From NCBI RefSeq assembly GCF_028369105.1, contig NZ_JAQNDO010000001.1, positions 11,068,501 through 11,132,500 of the forward strand: a DNA stretch of 64,000 nucleotides, in the 5' to 3' direction. The stretch comes from Polyangium mundeleinium (lineage in GTDB: Bacteria > Myxococcota_A > Polyangia > Polyangiales > Polyangiaceae). Shown in pieces: positions 3,617 through 9,772 of this stretch. The position numbers and the translations under genes were made by a program. The notes under the pieces are model-generated. The model saw only the letters and a list, made by a program, of their open reading frames with translations, was not told the origin of the DNA and made no database searches. Numbering within the stretch: position 1 is the first letter of the stretch; every line of letters starts with the position of its first letter.

Positions 3617-5248
3617 TCAGCCGCGCGCGAGGAGCTTTTCGACGTCCTCGGCGGAGAGCGTGTTCGCCACGTCCTTCGCCTCGCACCAGCCGCGCCGGGC
3701 TTGATCGAGGCCGAAGCGGATGTGCGCGGCCTGCTCCGCGTTCGCCGCCCGGCTCGTGATCACGAGCTGCGCGCCCGTGTCCTTGACGGCCCGCGCGTAG
3801 CCGTCGGCGCCCGCGAGGAACGCGGGGCGCGCGTCGAGCCCGAGGAGCACGCCGTGCTCGCGGCAAACCTTCGCCACCGCCTCCACGTCGAACTGCTTCG
3901 GTTTGCTCCCGTTGAACGGCCGCGCGAGCACGTGGATACGCCCCGACTTCGCCGCGGCGACGAGCGCCTGCGTGAGCGATTTTTCGTCGAGGTCGGCCGC
4001 GTGGATCTCCCCGATCACGACGTCGACGTCCTCGCTCGTCCCGATCGAACCGTCCGCGCCGATGGACACCACCACGCCGGCGAAGAGCTTCACCTTCCCC
4101 GCGTGCTTCTGCGCGCGCTCGATCTCGTTGCGCGACGCGCCGAGCACCACGAGCCACGCCGCACCCTTCGCGCCGCACGCCGACGCGATCGCCGCGATGC
4201 CGTCTGCGTCGAGGTTCCCTCCCACGAAGTCGCCGCGCATCTCGGCGCGCTCCACGAGCTTCGGCAGCTTCCCTTCTCGCGCCGCGTCGATCTCGCCCCG
4301 ATCCTCGCGCAACTCAGGCGGCACCCAGGCAAGCCCCACCGAGGCGAACACGTCCTCCTCGCGCTCGCCCGAGACGCGTTTGTCCTCCTGGAACACGCCC
4401 CACTCGCTGATCTTGAGCTTCCGGCGCACGCCGAGCGTGCGGATCGCGATGTTGTGCGCCTTCGACCCCGTGAAGTAGTGCATCGCCGCGCCGAACGACT
4501 CCACGGGCACCACGCGCAGATCGACCTGCAGCCCGCTCTTCAAGAGCACGCTCGTCTTCGTGTCCCCGTCCGCGAGCACCTTGTCCGTCGCAGGATCCGA
4601 GATGAGCTTCTTCCCGATCGCGACGCTCGTCTCCGCGGCGACGAGGATGTCCACGTCGCCCACGTTGTCCCGGCGCCTGCGGTAGCTCCCGGCGACCTCG
4701 ATCAGCGAAACGCCCTCGGTGGCGCGCAGCCGCGCCACGATCGGCTCGACCTGCGCCTCGGCCTCGGCGAGCGAGATCCGTTTTCCGCGCGCCGCGCGCG
4801 CCGCGATGCCTTCGAGGATCTGCGCTTCGAGCTTCGGCCCCACGCCCTTCAGCGCGCGCAGCCGCCCTTCCCGCGCGGCCTTCTCGAGCTCCTCGATCGT
4901 GTCGATCCCGAGCCCCTCGTGGATCGCCTTCGCCCGCTTCGGCCCGAGCCCCGGCAGCTCCAGCAGGTGGATCAAGCTCTCCGGCGTGCGCGACTTCAGC
5001 TCGTGCAGGAGCGCGAGCTCGCCCGACTCCGCGAGCTCGCGGATCTTGCCGGCCAGGTCCTTGCCGATGCCCGGCAGCTCCTCCAGCGAGCCCGGCCCCT
5101 TCTCGGGCAATGTGCTCACGGGTGAGGCGAGCGCGGAGACCGTGCGCGCTGCGCCTCGGTACGCGCGGACGCGGAACACGCTCGCGCCTTCGATCTCCAG
5201 GAGATCAGCGACCTGATCCAGCGTGCTCCCGATGGTTTCGTTGTCCAT
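3617..5248 (-). CDS. polX: DNA polymerase X family protein with degenerate PHP domain
   Basis: A 543-residue protein with the PolX layout. Helix-hairpin-helix elements lie at about 58-70 (LPGIGKDLAGKI), 98-113 and 133-145. The nucleotidyltransferase core has GS at 187-188, the metal-binding pair D198/D200 in GDVDIL and the third aspartate D243 in QVDLRVV. These polymerases fill gaps in base-excision repair; the C-terminal PHP domain normally supplies 3'-5' exonuclease or AP-endonuclease activity. Here the PHP region (about 335-540) keeps its length and the ARRGW landmark. It has lost the HxH metal site (RGDFVGGNLDADG) and the late D/H site (TSRAANAEQ), so exonuclease activity is unlikely. The ATG at 5248 gives the natural PolX N-terminus; the frame opens 39 codons earlier. 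Confidence 0.9.
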   Translation of the reverse strand: MDNETIGSTLDQVADLLEIEGASVFRVRAYRGAARTVSALASPVSTLPEKGPGSLEELPGIGKDLAGKIRELAESGELALLHELKSRTPESLIHLLELPGLGPKRAKAIHEGLGIDTIEELEKAAREGRLRALKGVGPKLEAQILEGIAARAARGKRISLAEAEAQVEPIVARLRATEGVSLIEVAGSYRRRRDNVGDVDILVAAETSVAIGKKLISDPATDKVLADGDTKTSVLLKSGLQVDLRVVPVESFGAAMHYFTGSKAHNIAIRTLGVRRKLKISEWGVFQEDKRVSGEREEDVFASVGLAWVPPELREDRGEIDAAREGKLPKLVERAEMRGDFVGGNLDADGIAAIASACGAKGAAWLVVLGASRNEIERAQKHAGKVKLFAGVVVSIGADGSIGTSEDVDVVIGEIHAADLDEKSLTQALVAAAKSGRIHVLARPFNGSKPKQFDVEAVAKVCREHGVLLGLDARPAFLAGADGYARAVKDTGAQLVITSRAANAEQAAHIRFGLDQARRGWCEAKDVANTLSAEDVEKLLARG

Positions 5249-5340
5249 GTTCTTCCTCTTCGCTCGCCTGCTCGCGCCCGACCAGACTGCGAAAAGCAAA
5301 TCACACGTCGGGTTTCTCGCGCTATATCCCCTCGCCCAAC

Positions 5341-6537
5341 GTGAGGACCTCCTTCGCCGCAGCAAGCCTGTTCGTCCTGGCCGCTGCCGCTCCCGCCTCG
5401 GCCTCCGTCGCCACGCCCGTCGCCGCGCCCCATGGCCCGACGGCCTGGGCCGACGCGTCGCGCGGCGGCATCCGCGGGCTCACGATCGGCCCCATCGAGA
5501 GCCTCCGCCACGCGGGCAAGGGCTACGGAAGCCCCGCGAGCGGCCGCGCGATGGACGAGGCCAAGGCGCTCGGCTCCACGTGGGTCAGCCTCACGCCCTT
5601 CGGTCGCGTTTGGGATCTGAAACCGAACGGGATCGACCTCACCTTCGAGGCGCCGTTCGCCGAGAACCGCGCGAACGTCCTTCACGCGATGGCGCAGGCG
5701 CACGCGCGTGGCCTCAAGGTCTTCCTCGTGCCGCACCTGTGGGTCGAGACCGGCGGCTGGCGCGCGCTCATCGATCCGGGCGACGACGCGGCCTGGGAGC
5801 GCTGGGCCGCGGCGTACAAGCGCTTCCTGCTCACCTGGGCCGAGGTCGCGGCCGAGGGCGGCGCCGAGATGCTCAGCGTCGGCGTGGAGCTACGCAGCTT
5901 CGTCACGACGGGCCGCGCCGCCTTGTTTTACCCGATCATCCAGGAGGTCCGTCGGGTCTACCCGGGCCTCCTGACCTACTCGGCGAACTGGGACGACGCC
6001 GAGGACACGCTCATCTTCGGCGAGCTCGACCTCGTCGGGATCAACGCGTTCTACCCGCTCGCCGACAAGGACGGCGCGGGGCGCGACGAGCTCCTCGCGG
6101 GTGGCCGCAAGGTGGCCGAGGGCATCGAGCGGCTCGCGGCGATGTGGGGGCGGCCGGTGGTGCTCACGGAGATCGGGTACACGACCCGCAAGGATCCGGC
6201 GATCCGGCCGTGGGAGTGGCCCGACGGCATGAAGGACGTGACGATCGACGAGGAGGCGCAGGCCCTCGCGTACGAGGCGCTCATCGCGCCGCTGCTCGAC
6301 AGCCGCTCGTGCGCGGGCTTCTTCGTGTGGCGGTATTATGCCGACCCGGACGATGTCTCGCAGGAGGCCGAGTGGGGCTTCTCCCCGCGCGGCAAGCTCG
6401 CCGAACTCGTGCTCCGCGACGCCTTCACCGCGCGCTGGGCCGCGGACGGCCCGGCCCTCCCGGGTGACAACCTCGGTAGGCACCGCGCCCGCACCCCGGG
6501 CCTCCTCGGCTGGGAACTCTCCCCGCCCCTGTTTTGA
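5341..6537 (+). CDS. Secreted glycoside hydrolase, GH113-like TIM barrel
   Basis: A 398-residue exported protein. A GTG start at 5341 gives a signal peptide (SFAAASLFVLAAAAPASASVA); the frame is open upstream, but that stretch is antisense to polX. The barrel resembles GH113 (beta-mannanase-like) proteins: GIRGLTIGP near the start, VFLVPHLWV at 127-135, the candidate acid/base Glu183 in SVGVELRSF and the candidate nucleophile Glu277 in VVLTEIGYTT, with FVWRYYADP near the end. Substrate cannot be read from sequence; a beta-mannan or related glycan is the family expectation. It is divergent from polX with about 92 bp between starts. A perfect-looking hairpin follows the stop. Confidence 0.82.
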   Translation: MRTSFAAASLFVLAAAAPASASVATPVAAPHGPTAWADASRGGIRGLTIGPIESLRHAGKGYGSPASGRAMDEAKALGSTWVSLTPFGRVWDLKPNGIDLTFEAPFAENRANVLHAMAQAHARGLKVFLVPHLWVETGGWRALIDPGDDAAWERWAAAYKRFLLTWAEVAAEGGAEMLSVGVELRSFVTTGRAALFYPIIQEVRRVYPGLLTYSANWDDAEDTLIFGELDLVGINAFYPLADKDGAGRDELLAGGRKVAEGIERLAAMWGRPVVLTEIGYTTRKDPAIRPWEWPDGMKDVTIDEEAQALAYEALIAPLLDSRSCAGFFVWRYYADPDDVSQEAEWGFSPRGKLAELVLRDAFTARWAADGPALPGDNLGRHRARTPGLLGWELSPPLF

Positions 6538-6545
6538 GGTCCAGC

Positions 6546-6576
6546 CGTTGGACGTCCGGCCTTTGGACGTCCGACG
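6546..6576 (+). terminator. Hairpin after the GH113-like gene
   Basis: CGTTGGACGTCC and GGACGTCCGACG can pair over 12 positions with one G-T wobble around a 7-base loop (GGCCTTT). It starts 9 bases after the hydrolase stop. There is no T-run, so it may be a terminator of the GC-rich type or simply a structured spacer; the palindrome GGACGTCC occurs in both arms. Confidence 0.45.
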
Positions 6577-6663
6577 AATTCCTGCACCTGGCACGGTTCT
6601 TCCTAGGCTCCTCCGCCGCTCGGCCGGCCCGTTGGGCTGGCCCATGCTGGCACAGGAGTCGAT

Positions 6664-7380
6664 ATGATCCGACGAACCCTTTCTTCCTGCTTTTCGGCCT
6701 TCACCCTCGCGGCGCTTTCGGTCTCGGCTGCGGGCTGCATCTTCGTCGGCGCCGCGGGCGGCGGCGCCTGCGAGGTCGACGGCAAGCAATTCTCCGTCGG
6801 CGAAGAATTCCCCGCGCCCGGCGGCTGCAACACCTGCACCTGCCAGGCCGATGGGTCGACCATCTGCACGCGATTGGCGTGCCTCGCGACGTGCACCGTG
6901 AACGGCAAGGTCTTCACGGAGGGCGATACCTTCCCCGGGGACGACAGCTGCAATACGTGCACGTGCGGGCATGACGGCTCTGTCACATGCACCGCGGAGG
7001 CCTGCCCCGAGCCTGCATGCATCGTCGACGGCATCGGCTACAACCCCGGCGACACGTTCCCTTCGAGCGACGGGTGCAATACGTGCACGTGCGGCGACGA
7101 CGGCATGGTCGGCTGCACCGAAAAGGCCTGCCTCCCCTGTGAGTACGGCGGACAAACCTACCAGGCCGGCGACTCCTTCCCCTCGACAGACGGCTGCAAT
7201 ACGTGCACGTGCGGGCCTGACGGCTCGGTCGCTTGCACCGAGAAGGCGTGCGCCGTCGTGTGCACCTACAATGAACAAACCTACCAACCCGGAGATTCGT
7301 GGCAGGCGAGTGACGGTTGCAACACGTGCACGTGTAGCCCCGAAGGTCTCGTAGGTTGCACGAAGATCAACTGCCCGTGA
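6664..7380 (+). CDS. Lipoprotein with five tandem pacifastin/VWC-like cysteine domains
   Basis: A 238-residue lipoprotein. It has a signal sequence with lipobox SAAGC (Cys25) and then five domains of about 38 residues (36-73, 77-114, 119-156, 159-196, 200-237). Each has six cysteines in the order C-x18-CNTCTC-x7-CT-x3-C. The CNTCTC..DG..CT...C part matches pacifastin-family serine-protease inhibitors of arthropods; the first loop (C-x3-G...G-D/E-x-F) is longer and recalls von Willebrand type C domains. The residues between the last two cysteines differ per domain (RLA, AEA, EKA, EKA, KIN), which is where a pacifastin reactive site would lie. An outer-membrane inhibitor or adhesive role is inference. 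AGGAG sits 6 bases before the ATG. Confidence 0.8.
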   Translation: MIRRTLSSCFSAFTLAALSVSAAGCIFVGAAGGGACEVDGKQFSVGEEFPAPGGCNTCTCQADGSTICTRLACLATCTVNGKVFTEGDTFPGDDSCNTCTCGHDGSVTCTAEACPEPACIVDGIGYNPGDTFPSSDGCNTCTCGDDGMVGCTEKACLPCEYGGQTYQAGDSFPSTDGCNTCTCGPDGSVACTEKACAVVCTYNEQTYQPGDSWQASDGCNTCTCSPEGLVGCTKINCP

Positions 7381-7449
7381 TCGTTCCGACGCTCACGCCG
7401 CCCGGTCTCCTCCGAACAACCCGTCTCTCCTGAAAAGCCTCTTTCATCC

Positions 7450-7489
7450 GGTCCCCACGCCTGGTAGTGCCAATCCCGGGCGTGGGACC
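7450..7489 (+). other. Hairpin in the leader of the lamin-tail lipoprotein gene
   Basis: GGTCCCCACGCC can pair with GGCGTGGGACC (11 pairs with one bulged C) around an approximately 17-base loop. It ends 7 bases before the ribosome-binding GAGGAG at 7496. It could be a terminator for the upstream gene or a 5'-leader structure; no T-run follows. Confidence 0.45.
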
Positions 7490-7507
7490 TCGATGAGGAG
7501 TTTTTCC

Positions 7508-9772
7508 ATGAAGCTTCGATCTCTTTCGGTGGCGGGGGTCCTCGCGGCGCTCGCCGTGGGCGTCGCCGGTTGTAGCGACGAACCGACGCAGAACACCACC
7601 ACGAGCTCGTCGAGCAGCGGCACCGGCGGCCAGGGCGGCGACGGCGGCGGCGGCACCGGCGGCGTCGGCGGCGACGGTGGCATGGGCGGCGGCGGCATGG
7701 GCGGCGGCGGCATGGGCGGCGGCGGCATGGGCGGCACCGGCGGCGTCGGGGGTATGGGCGGCACCGGTGGTATGGGCGGGTCCGGCGGCGGCAATCCCCC
7801 GACCGAGATCTGCAACAACATGATGGATGACGACGGCGACGGCGACGTCGACTGCTCCGACGCCGACTGCGCGGCGGCGTGCGCCGAGGCTTGCACGGGC
7901 GGCGCGGACGAGGACAACGACGGCGACATCGACTGCGCCGACGCCGACTGCGCGCTGGCACCCGCGTGCGGCAAGCTCGTCATCAACGAGATCGATTATG
8001 ACCAGGCCAGCGCCGACACGGCCGAGTTCATCGAGATCTACAATGCCGGCGGCGACGTGATGCTCGACGGCGTCGAGGTCATCCTCGTCAATGGCACGGG
8101 CCCCGCCGGCGCGGACGTCGTCTACGGCACGCCCTCCAAGCTCTCCGGGTTGCTCGCGGCCGGCGGATATGTCGTCGTCGCGTCCACGGGTGTGACGAAC
8201 ATCGATCCGGCCGCGATCGTCGTGTCGCTCCCGAACCCGATGGACAACATCCAGAATGGCGCGCCGGACGGCGTCGCGCTCTTCGATACGAAGACGAACA
8301 CGCTGCTCGACGGGCTCTCGTACGAAAACGGCACGCCGGACGGCCAGGTCACGGCCGTGATGCTCGGCGGCCAGACGTTCTCGCTGGTCTCGGGCACGCC
8401 GACGACCGCGTCCGACAACCAGGCCGCGGCCTCGCCGATCCGCTCGATGATCCGCTATCCGAATGGGCAGGACACGAGCGACGACAGCGTCGACTGGCGC
8501 GCGACCACGCAGATCACGCCGGGCGCGGCGAACGTGGCGACGGCCGAGGTCTGCGACACCGCCATGCTCGACGAGGACGCCGACAACCTCATCGACTGCG
8601 CCGACCCCGATTGCGCGATGGCGCCGCAGTGTACGGAGTCCTGCACCAACATGAAGGACGACGACGGCGACATGATGATCGATTGCGCCGATCCCGACTG
8701 CGCCGCCGATCCCGCGTGTTTGCCGCAGGAGAACTGCAGCAACGGCACCGACGACGACGGCGACATGGCGATCGACTGCGCCGACACGGATTGCGCCGAC
8801 AAGTCGTGCGGGGCGAACGGCCTCGTCTGCGAGGCCGCGTCGATGACGTGCGCCTGCCCGAGCGGCATGACGATGGAAATGGCCTGCGCCGACCTCGTCG
8901 ACGACGATTGCGACGGCCTCGTCGACTGCGCCGACACGGATTGCGCGGGCAACATGGCGTGCGTCGCCCAGAAGGTCACGGCGGTCGATTACCAGGTCAT
9001 CGCGCACGGCGGCAAGCTCGTCGTCACGGGCAATGGCTTCACGGGCGCGACGGTGGTCAAGATCGGCGGCGTCGATCAGACGTTCACGGTCGACAACAAC
9101 ACGCAGATCACGCTCACGAACGTGCCCGACACGACGCCGATCGCGCTGCAGGACCTCATCGTCACCACGCCGAGCGGCGACACGGCGCCGTTCCAGGTGA
9201 CCGTGATTCACCTGCTCATCAACGAGCTCGACTCGGACCAGATGGGCACGGACTCCGCGGAGTTCGTCGAGATCACGACGGGCGTGCCGAACGTGAGCCT
9301 CGCGGGCTACACGCTCGTCCTCTACAATGGCAACAACGATCTCTCGTACACGCCCGTGACGGCGCTCTCCGGCACGACGGACGCGAATGGCATGCTGGTC
9401 GTCGGCAGCCCGGGGATGACGCCCGCGCCGACCATCGCTTTCAGCGCGGCCAGCGTGATTCAGAATGGCCAGGACGCGGTGGCGATTTACCAGGCCGCCC
9501 CGGCGTCGTTCCCCTCGGGCACGGCGGTCAAGGCGAACGGCCTCATCGACGTGCTCGTCTATTCCACGGGGCAAACGGCCGACGCCGGCCTGCTCGACGT
9601 CCTCATCGGGCCCGCGGGCACGCCGGGCCGCACGCAGGTGAGCGAAGGCTCGGGCGGCGTGCAGGAGACGCAATCGATCCAGCGCTGCGGCGACGGTCGC
9701 AGGAATGGCGACAAGTTCAAGGTCGGGCAGCCCACGCCCGGCGCGGCGAACAACGTCATGGCCTGCCCGTGA
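7508..9772 (+). CDS. Lipoprotein with DxDxD cysteine repeats, IPT/TIG-like and two lamin-tail domains
   Basis: A 754-residue surface lipoprotein with lipobox VAGC. A Gly/Met-rich linker (GGGMGGGGMGG type) leads to two acidic repeats ending in DVDCSDADC and DIDCADADC. A first lamin-tail domain follows (LVINEIDYDQ...AEFIEIYN). Then come four more acidic Cys repeats of the DDDGD...DCAD.DC type, probably calcium-binding. An IPT/TIG-like immunoglobulin fold (VVTGNGFTGATVVKIGG) and a second lamin-tail domain (LLINELDSDQ...AEFVEI) complete the protein. Lamin-tail domains in bacteria sit on secreted or surface proteins. The ATG at 7508 is preferred over 7493 because the ribosome-binding GAGGAG lies just downstream of the earlier ATG. 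No catalytic domain is seen. Confidence 0.82.
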   Translation: MKLRSLSVAGVLAALAVGVAGCSDEPTQNTTTSSSSSGTGGQGGDGGGGTGGVGGDGGMGGGGMGGGGMGGGGMGGTGGVGGMGGTGGMGGSGGGNPPTEICNNMMDDDGDGDVDCSDADCAAACAEACTGGADEDNDGDIDCADADCALAPACGKLVINEIDYDQASADTAEFIEIYNAGGDVMLDGVEVILVNGTGPAGADVVYGTPSKLSGLLAAGGYVVVASTGVTNIDPAAIVVSLPNPMDNIQNGAPDGVALFDTKTNTLLDGLSYENGTPDGQVTAVMLGGQTFSLVSGTPTTASDNQAAASPIRSMIRYPNGQDTSDDSVDWRATTQITPGAANVATAEVCDTAMLDEDADNLIDCADPDCAMAPQCTESCTNMKDDDGDMMIDCADPDCAADPACLPQENCSNGTDDDGDMAIDCADTDCADKSCGANGLVCEAASMTCACPSGMTMEMACADLVDDDCDGLVDCADTDCAGNMACVAQKVTAVDYQVIAHGGKLVVTGNGFTGATVVKIGGVDQTFTVDNNTQITLTNVPDTTPIALQDLIVTTPSGDTAPFQVTVIHLLINELDSDQMGTDSAEFVEITTGVPNVSLAGYTLVLYNGNNDLSYTPVTALSGTTDANGMLVVGSPGMTPAPTIAFSAASVIQNGQDAVAIYQAAPASFPSGTAVKANGLIDVLVYSTGQTADAGLLDVLIGPAGTPGRTQVSEGSGGVQETQSIQRCGDGRRNGDKFKVGQPTPGAANNVMACP

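Follow-up and report, generated by a model that had tools for sequence, protein, structure and literature searches.

The window analysed here, a stretch of 64,000 nucleotides from the genome of the myxobacterium Polyangium mundeleinium, carries on its forward strand a gene for a putative lipoprotein built of five pacifastin-like units. The open reading frame (ORF) runs from an ATG start at position 6664 to position 7380 (6664..7380, + strand), encodes 238 residues, and has an AGGAG at 6654-6658 on its 5' side; a search of 6400-7600 gave neither a sigma-70-like promoter nor a terminator. By its sequence pattern, the segment 6664..6738 (+) encodes a signal peptide and lipobox region, in which a hydrophobic stretch leads to SAAG and then Cys25, an arrangement that we take to be a lipobox by the usual rule. 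M1 is kept and G24-C25 is invariant in all six Polyangium orthologues, and the protein is probably lipidated at Cys25.

As the initial annotation proposed, the ORF holds five tandem units of 38 residues with six cysteines each, all of the form C-x18-C-x2-C-x-C-x7-C-x4-C and joined by linkers of two to four residues (LAT, PEPA, LP and AVV). On the + strand they are unit 1 (residues 36-73, 6769..6882), unit 2 (residues 77-114, 6892..7005), unit 3 (residues 119-156, 7018..7131), unit 4 (residues 159-196, 7138..7251) and unit 5 (residues 200-237, 7261..7374). The signature CNTCTC is present in all five, while the DG that had been described as following it occurs in four, with EG in unit 5. The residues after CT in the loop between the fifth and sixth cysteines (C5 and C6) read RLA, AEA, EKA, EKA and KIN, as first reported. 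In the numbering C5-X-P1-P1'-X-C6, P1 is the second residue of this loop (PMC13388995, which, like PMC2689174 and PMC6270503, is cited throughout from part of its text), and the P1-P1' pairs of units 1 to 5 are thus R-L, A-E, E-K, E-K and K-I. It follows that two units, 1 and 5, have trypsin-type sites; several specificities with one trypsin-like site had been suggested, and the residues do differ among units, but the number of basic P1 residues is two.

Pacifastins inhibit proteases, are known chiefly from insects and crayfish, and were long regarded as immunity proteins of arthropods. The profile searches that had been recommended, with pacifastin and VWC models, both matched the whole protein over five stretches: Pacifastin_I (PF05375) at 114.1 bits (cut-off 27.9, E 2.3e-33) and VWC (PF00093) at 92.3 bits (cut-off 27.6). 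TILa, FnI_RECK, VWF and SVWC models also scored above their cut-offs, FnI_RECK barely (30.6 against 30), and NCBIfam gave no match for the protein. When the 13.25-Mb host genome was scanned with PF05375, this gene alone was matched, with four of its five units above the cut-off singly and unit 1 scoring 25.8; none of 14 control genomes had a match. Taken one at a time, 67 of 68 long-loop units, chosen by us from the units then known, matched Pacifastin_I, and 51 of the 68 matched VWC (E 0.01 or better).

Because the PF05375 seed may itself hold bacterial sequences, we built a hidden Markov model (HMM) from five solved arthropod pacifastins only and used cysteine-preserving shuffles as decoys. 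Units 1 to 5 scored 25.4, 29.9, 36.6, 35.8 and 28.9 bits with this model, and for each of them the score was reached by 0 of 1000 shuffles. We applied the same model to 319 distinct units from 98 proteins, a set that contains near copies (e.g. L098/L116 and L103/L104) and whose counts are biased by a filter requiring either Asn after C2 or CT close to the end; 288 of the 319 lay above the 99th percentile of 6380 decoys. Since the units beat cysteine-matched decoys, they have more than the cysteine scaffold in common with pacifastins. Asn follows C2 in 105 of 107 representative units brought in by pacifastin-type searches, and Thr (P2) follows C5 in 101 of them; in an unfiltered set of 178 units, from loci likewise obtained by pacifastin-type searches, the counts were 169 and 162. 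That a bacterial and probably lipid-anchored protein carries pacifastin-type domains is borne out by the Pfam match, the matches of single units and the arthropod-only HMM.

All five units conform to the pacifastin pattern of 2009, CN-x-C-x-C-x2-3-G-x3-6-C-T-x3-C (here C4-x3-G-x3-C5), but their first loop has 18 residues in place of the 9-12 of that consensus (C1-x9-12-C2; PMC2689174), and for this reason we did not file them as conventional pacifastins. They resemble the arthropod inhibitors PMP-C / LCMI-II, LCMI-I and SGPI-1 (PF05375) in cysteine order, CNxCxC, the CT-P1-P1'-x-C loop and the tandem layout of the precursors; unlike those, the five-unit protein lacks dibasic processing sites in its linkers and has a probable lipid anchor. 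A report of May 2026 (Sci Rep, PMC13388995) described pacifastin-like domains whose first loop is longer, found in myxobacteria and Candidate Phyla Radiation (CPR) bacteria, with 24 bacterial accessions, and defined an 'Ancestral' class in which a first loop of 13-20 residues forms an N-terminal beta-hairpin and the disulphides are C1-C4, C2-C6 and C3-C5. With a first loop of 18, a PF05375 match and, in the model described below, two short strands before a three-stranded sheet, the five-unit protein is a further member of this class. It agrees with that class also in the six-cysteine scaffold, the Asn after C2, a Gly between C4 and C5, the placing of P1-P1' between C5 and C6, the occurrence of acidic as well as basic P1 residues, and the myxobacterial host; unlike the published members, the bacterial units here are found directly by Pfam.

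Structure prediction of a single unit, another check that had been recommended, was made for unit 5 within an alignment of the 68 units and gave a predicted local distance difference test (pLDDT) of 95.8; the model overlays pacifastins as well as VWC and fibronectin type I (FnI) modules. In Foldseek the first match was 2vu8, an insect pacifastin solved with fungal trypsin (30 columns overlaid at 1.2 A, with 47% identity); the insect pacifastins 2vu8 and 2xtt stood at the top (TM 0.64-0.72), with mucin-2 and fibronectin modules just after, and the four pacifastin rows among the first five matches overlaid at 1.2-2.2 A. No E-value fell below 0.001, as expected with 38 residues. VIA-align placed MUC5B and FnI first (Z 5.0), with the VWC domain of collagen 2A at 3.7 (1.6 A over 36 residues) and pacifastins at 2.2-3.7, values too low to rank families (a Z below 8 may mean only a common arrangement); eight FnI rows in the top ten overlaid 37-38 residues at 1.8-2.5 A. 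In both programs the superposition on trypsin-bound insect inhibitors takes in the reactive-site loop of the unit. Judged from these models, the units share a fold with pacifastin and VWC and probably also with FnI, and the extra N-terminal hairpin of the long-loop unit is FnI/VWC-like; the cysteine set of FnI differs from that of the units. The mature chain modelled as a whole (pLDDT 84, predicted template modelling score (pTM) 0.39) has well-modelled units with no fixed mutual arrangement.

The initial annotation had seen in the units a possible bacterial link between pacifastin and VWC. The common fold stands, as the overlays indicate; an evolutionary link would be conjecture, and the units are half a VWC domain at most. 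They match PF00093 over its first part and have the three-stranded sheet and first cysteines of VWC subdomain 1; VWC has a second subdomain whose further cysteines bridge to subdomain 1, and it also differs from the bacterial units in that they conserve Thr after C5. Although all five units match PF00093, we rejected VWC membership, as the second subdomain is absent and only 2-4 residues separate one unit from the next. Over 356 genomes of the phylum, PF00093 matched in 21, in 13 of them above the cut-off, and among the matches listed it ended at profile position 32-45 of 57 in 38 of 41 rows. The three listed matches of the 41 that pass position 50 (L130, L131 and L132) lack CCxxC, the pattern of VWC subdomain 2. 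Of the bridges in the crossveinless 2 VWC domain, three are within the second subdomain or extend to it (PMC6270503). A VWC-type disulphide pairing, which had been offered as grounds for refuting the inhibitor assignment, hardly applies to units in which that subdomain is missing.

Orthologues were found in all five other Polyangium genomes searched, at 68-88% identity. The P1 Arg of unit 1, the E-K pair of unit 4 and the K-I pair of unit 5 are kept in all six; unit 3 varies at P1-P1', and in unit 2 the A-E pair occurs only in the genome of the window, with E-K in four of the five others. We tested hypervariability of P1 as a proof of inhibition and did not find it (entropy rank 11 of 38 columns), a result that neither supports nor refutes that function. 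Lys at P1 is commoner in the last unit of an array, at 14 of 32 arrays, than in the other units, at 23 of 135 (Fisher p 0.0035), and Lys-Ile at P1-P1', of which unit 5 (7261-7374) is an example, occurs in 8 of 32 last units against 12 of 135 others (p 0.029). For this comparison the arrays were thinned by the identity of their last units, at 75%, and the hypothesis was picked after viewing the data, and we treat the preference as a lead only.

The gene's neighbours in the window encode GH113, a lamin-tail lipoprotein, PolX and EF-G (the last named by eye). In each of the five other Polyangium loci GH113 is an immediate neighbour; the opposite flank carries the lamin-tail gene in four of them and is cut off by the contig end in the fifth. 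We looked for an operon or an adjacent target gene; none of the neighbours points to a target. The five-unit protein diverges faster than GH113, PolX and EF-G, with identities of 87% against 96% for GH113 in P. fumosum and 66% against 85% in genome G292. That it changes faster than all its neighbours was not borne out, as in genome G367 the lamin-tail protein is 75% and the five-unit protein 72% identical. The downstream putative lipoprotein (7493-9772) combines lamin-tail domains (LTD, 66.4 bits) with Asp-rich DDDGD...DC repeats. The head-to-head ORFs listed for GH113 (+) and PolX (-) overlap at 5110-5365, and the true starts of both are probably inward of the listed ones.

PF05375 matched in 70 of 377 sampled Myxococcota genomes, in 60 of them above the cut-off. 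A GTDB genome scan (query A5) gave 48 loci, 40 of them labelled Myxococcota-type or deltaproteobacterial and the rest distributed over Patescibacteria (3, two of them Shapirobacteria), one Nitrospirae label, one Woesearchaeota and 3 unspecific labels. A lipobox-like motif was seen in 59 of 94 related proteins, a count made with no control for chance. The contig labelled Woesearchaeota, from a metagenome-assembled genome (MAG), encodes a protein (L111:1777-3369) that looks membrane-anchored and has two long-loop units, scoring 24.1 bits, below the Pfam cut-off; the contig may be misbinned. A cysteine-rich tail recurs after the units in L131, L132 and L115, approximately CDP...Y....P..C..I.Y.C....T.F.N.CGCGC and sometimes ending CP.SGIAY.

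In 40 of the 319 units the first loop is no longer than 12 residues. Of these, 30 were tested: all 30 matched Pacifastin_I and none PF00093, with 21 matching a VWF-like model and 8 FnI_RECK. A short-loop profile found SGPI-1 (1.2e-11), then other pacifastins and then VWF chains (4.5e-7), and the nearest bacterial unit is 68% identical to SGPI-1 (engineered variant). Short-loop units occur, among others, in two single-contig genomes (L006 and L017), and to judge by these sequences both pacifastin architectures, whose succession has been taken to mark an arthropod-specific transition, exist in bacteria. The short-loop class would therefore be older than arthropods, have passed between them and bacteria, or have arisen repeatedly. 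Arthropod-type short-loop units were noted in Myxococcota loci L006, L017, L019, L053 and L010, with Trp two residues before C5 in 30 of the 40, as in SGPI-1; L019 encodes a small, secreted-looking protein of two units with no lipobox.

Kazal and antistasin domains are known inhibitors of serine proteases. We tallied Pfam domains in 92 prokaryotic unit-bearing proteins from outside Polyangium, that is, the 98-protein set less 6 Polyangium copies, and found Kazal_1 in 17 (15 of 75 and 2 of 17), Kazal_2 in 11 (10 and 1), Antistasin in 1 and VWC in 31 (28 and 3). A pattern search recognised a Kazal motif in 13 of the 98. For scale, Kazal_1 had 136 domain matches over 39 whole genomes (the relatives' and the host's), with 1 in the host genome and none in the 14 controls. 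In the protein at L104:4651-6885 the two kinds of unit alternate strictly (P-K-P-K-P-K-P-K-P-K-P), and L009:1-2337 (G219 contig 50) has 12 pacifastin and 6 antistasin stretches behind a lipobox-like signal. Pacifastin and Kazal units in one chain were recorded at L104:2959-4485, L104:4651-6885, L091, L083, L093, L102, L103 and L098. Such chains have the same six-cysteine units as the protein in the window, which differs from them in having pacifastin units only.

On this evidence we consider it probable that this five-unit member of the long-loop pacifastin-like class is tethered to the surface and acts as a multi-headed inhibitor of serine proteases. The chain would be exported, probably lipidated at Cys25, and would show five rigid, disulphide-knotted units as beads on a string, each presenting its C5-Thr-P1-P1'-x-C6 segment as insect pacifastins present theirs to trypsin, for canonical (standard-mechanism) inhibition. 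Trypsin-like enzymes would be the targets of unit 1 (Arg) and unit 5 (Lys); units 2-4 (Ala, Glu, Glu) may face elastase-like or Glu-specific enzymes or act as spacers, and the likely use would be a cell-surface shield against the organism's own or foreign secreted proteases. We infer lipidation, disulphide pairing, inhibition, targets and biological role alike, and we favour an inhibitor because Asn and Thr-P2 are kept, the overlay on trypsin-bound inhibitors includes the loop, and relatives are fused to Kazal and antistasin domains; the P1 residues kept at units 1, 4 and 5 across Polyangium also count for it. Possible targets are 20 trypsin-family matches in the host genome, perhaps including HtrA-like proteases. 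Several observations weigh on the other side. VIA-align places mucin and FnI modules above pacifastins, and fold alone therefore gives no preference for an inhibitor; P1 is variable and not hypervariable, and it is acidic or amide in 139 of the 319 bacterial units; metazoan pacifastins have 13% acidic or amide P1, for which no specificity had been established by 2009 (PMC2689174). The protein in the window has no Kazal or antistasin domain by Pfam, the joining of Kazal and pacifastin units in one chain may mean no more than that both are secreted, cysteine-rich repeats, and trypsin-family proteases, present in 11 of the 14 control genomes, are an unspecific sign.

A rival reading is a non-inhibitory array of FnI/VWC-like modules, structural or adhesive, that binds matrix, polysaccharide or partner proteins at the surface. 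The long first loop yields an N-terminal hairpin like that of FnI and of VWC subdomain 1, MUC5B and fibronectin lead the VIA-align matches, the five units score 92 bits with VWC, acidic and amide P1 residues are common, and some short-loop units match the VWF-like and FnI_RECK models. We nevertheless regard such an array as unlikely, given the missing second VWC subdomain, the retained Asn and Thr-P2, the inhibitor fusions in relatives, and short-loop relatives that match insect inhibitors at 1.2e-11 and PF00093 in none of 30 cases. Alternatively, the protein may be a decoy or sacrificial spacer: a very stable cysteine-rich stalk that resists proteases and guards the surface by its bulk, with no specific inhibition. 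This would accord with the beads-on-a-string model, and divergence faster than that of GH113, PolX and EF-G would suit weak constraint; the P1-P1' pairs of units 4 and 5, kept in all six orthologues, would be needless for a mere stalk, and we think such a spacer quite improbable. Small disulphide-rich domains do converge, and the absence of any Foldseek E-value below 0.001 would be compatible with a cysteine pattern that arose by chance or convergence, with no kinship to pacifastin, but the failure of cysteine-matched decoys (0 of 1000 for each unit in the window) and the 68% identity of a short-loop bacterial unit to SGPI-1 make that very hard to credit.

In addition to the inhibitor proposed for the window, we suggest, more tentatively, that a large and as yet unnamed family exists in Myxococcota, made up of surface-anchored multi-headed inhibitors of serine proteases whose chains combine pacifastin units with Kazal units, even in alternation, and with antistasin, and that both loop architectures are present in bacteria, the short one being older, transferred or of multiple origin. 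This wider bacterial set, with its short loops and its Kazal and antistasin partners, is a more interesting result than the protein in the window. In the part of PMC13388995 cited here, 23 bacterial members recovered by structure only are all assigned to the Ancestral class and called undetectable by sequence profiles, so that at most one of the 24 is conventional; the short-loop class is said to be uniquely restricted to arthropods, and none was found in Archaea. Both claims, that of profile-undetectable members and that of an arthropod-only short loop, look too strong given the Pfam and short-loop matches reported here. The main text of that paper uses neither 'antistasin' nor 'lipoprotein', and apart from it our literature search returned, among the matches listed, nothing on pacifastin or Kazal fusions in bacteria. 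As far as the literature searched goes, it is new that an ordinary Pfam model finds the bacterial units, that some have short loops, and that relatives carry Kazal or antistasin partners.

If the inhibitor assignment is true, soil bacteria use canonical inhibitors of an animal type at their surface, and the units would be easily expressed test material. In bacteria too, pacifastin-type units may well be inhibitors, as their fusion to other protease inhibitors in relatives suggests. The bacterial units with short loops are directly relevant to the published claim of a uniquely arthropod architecture.
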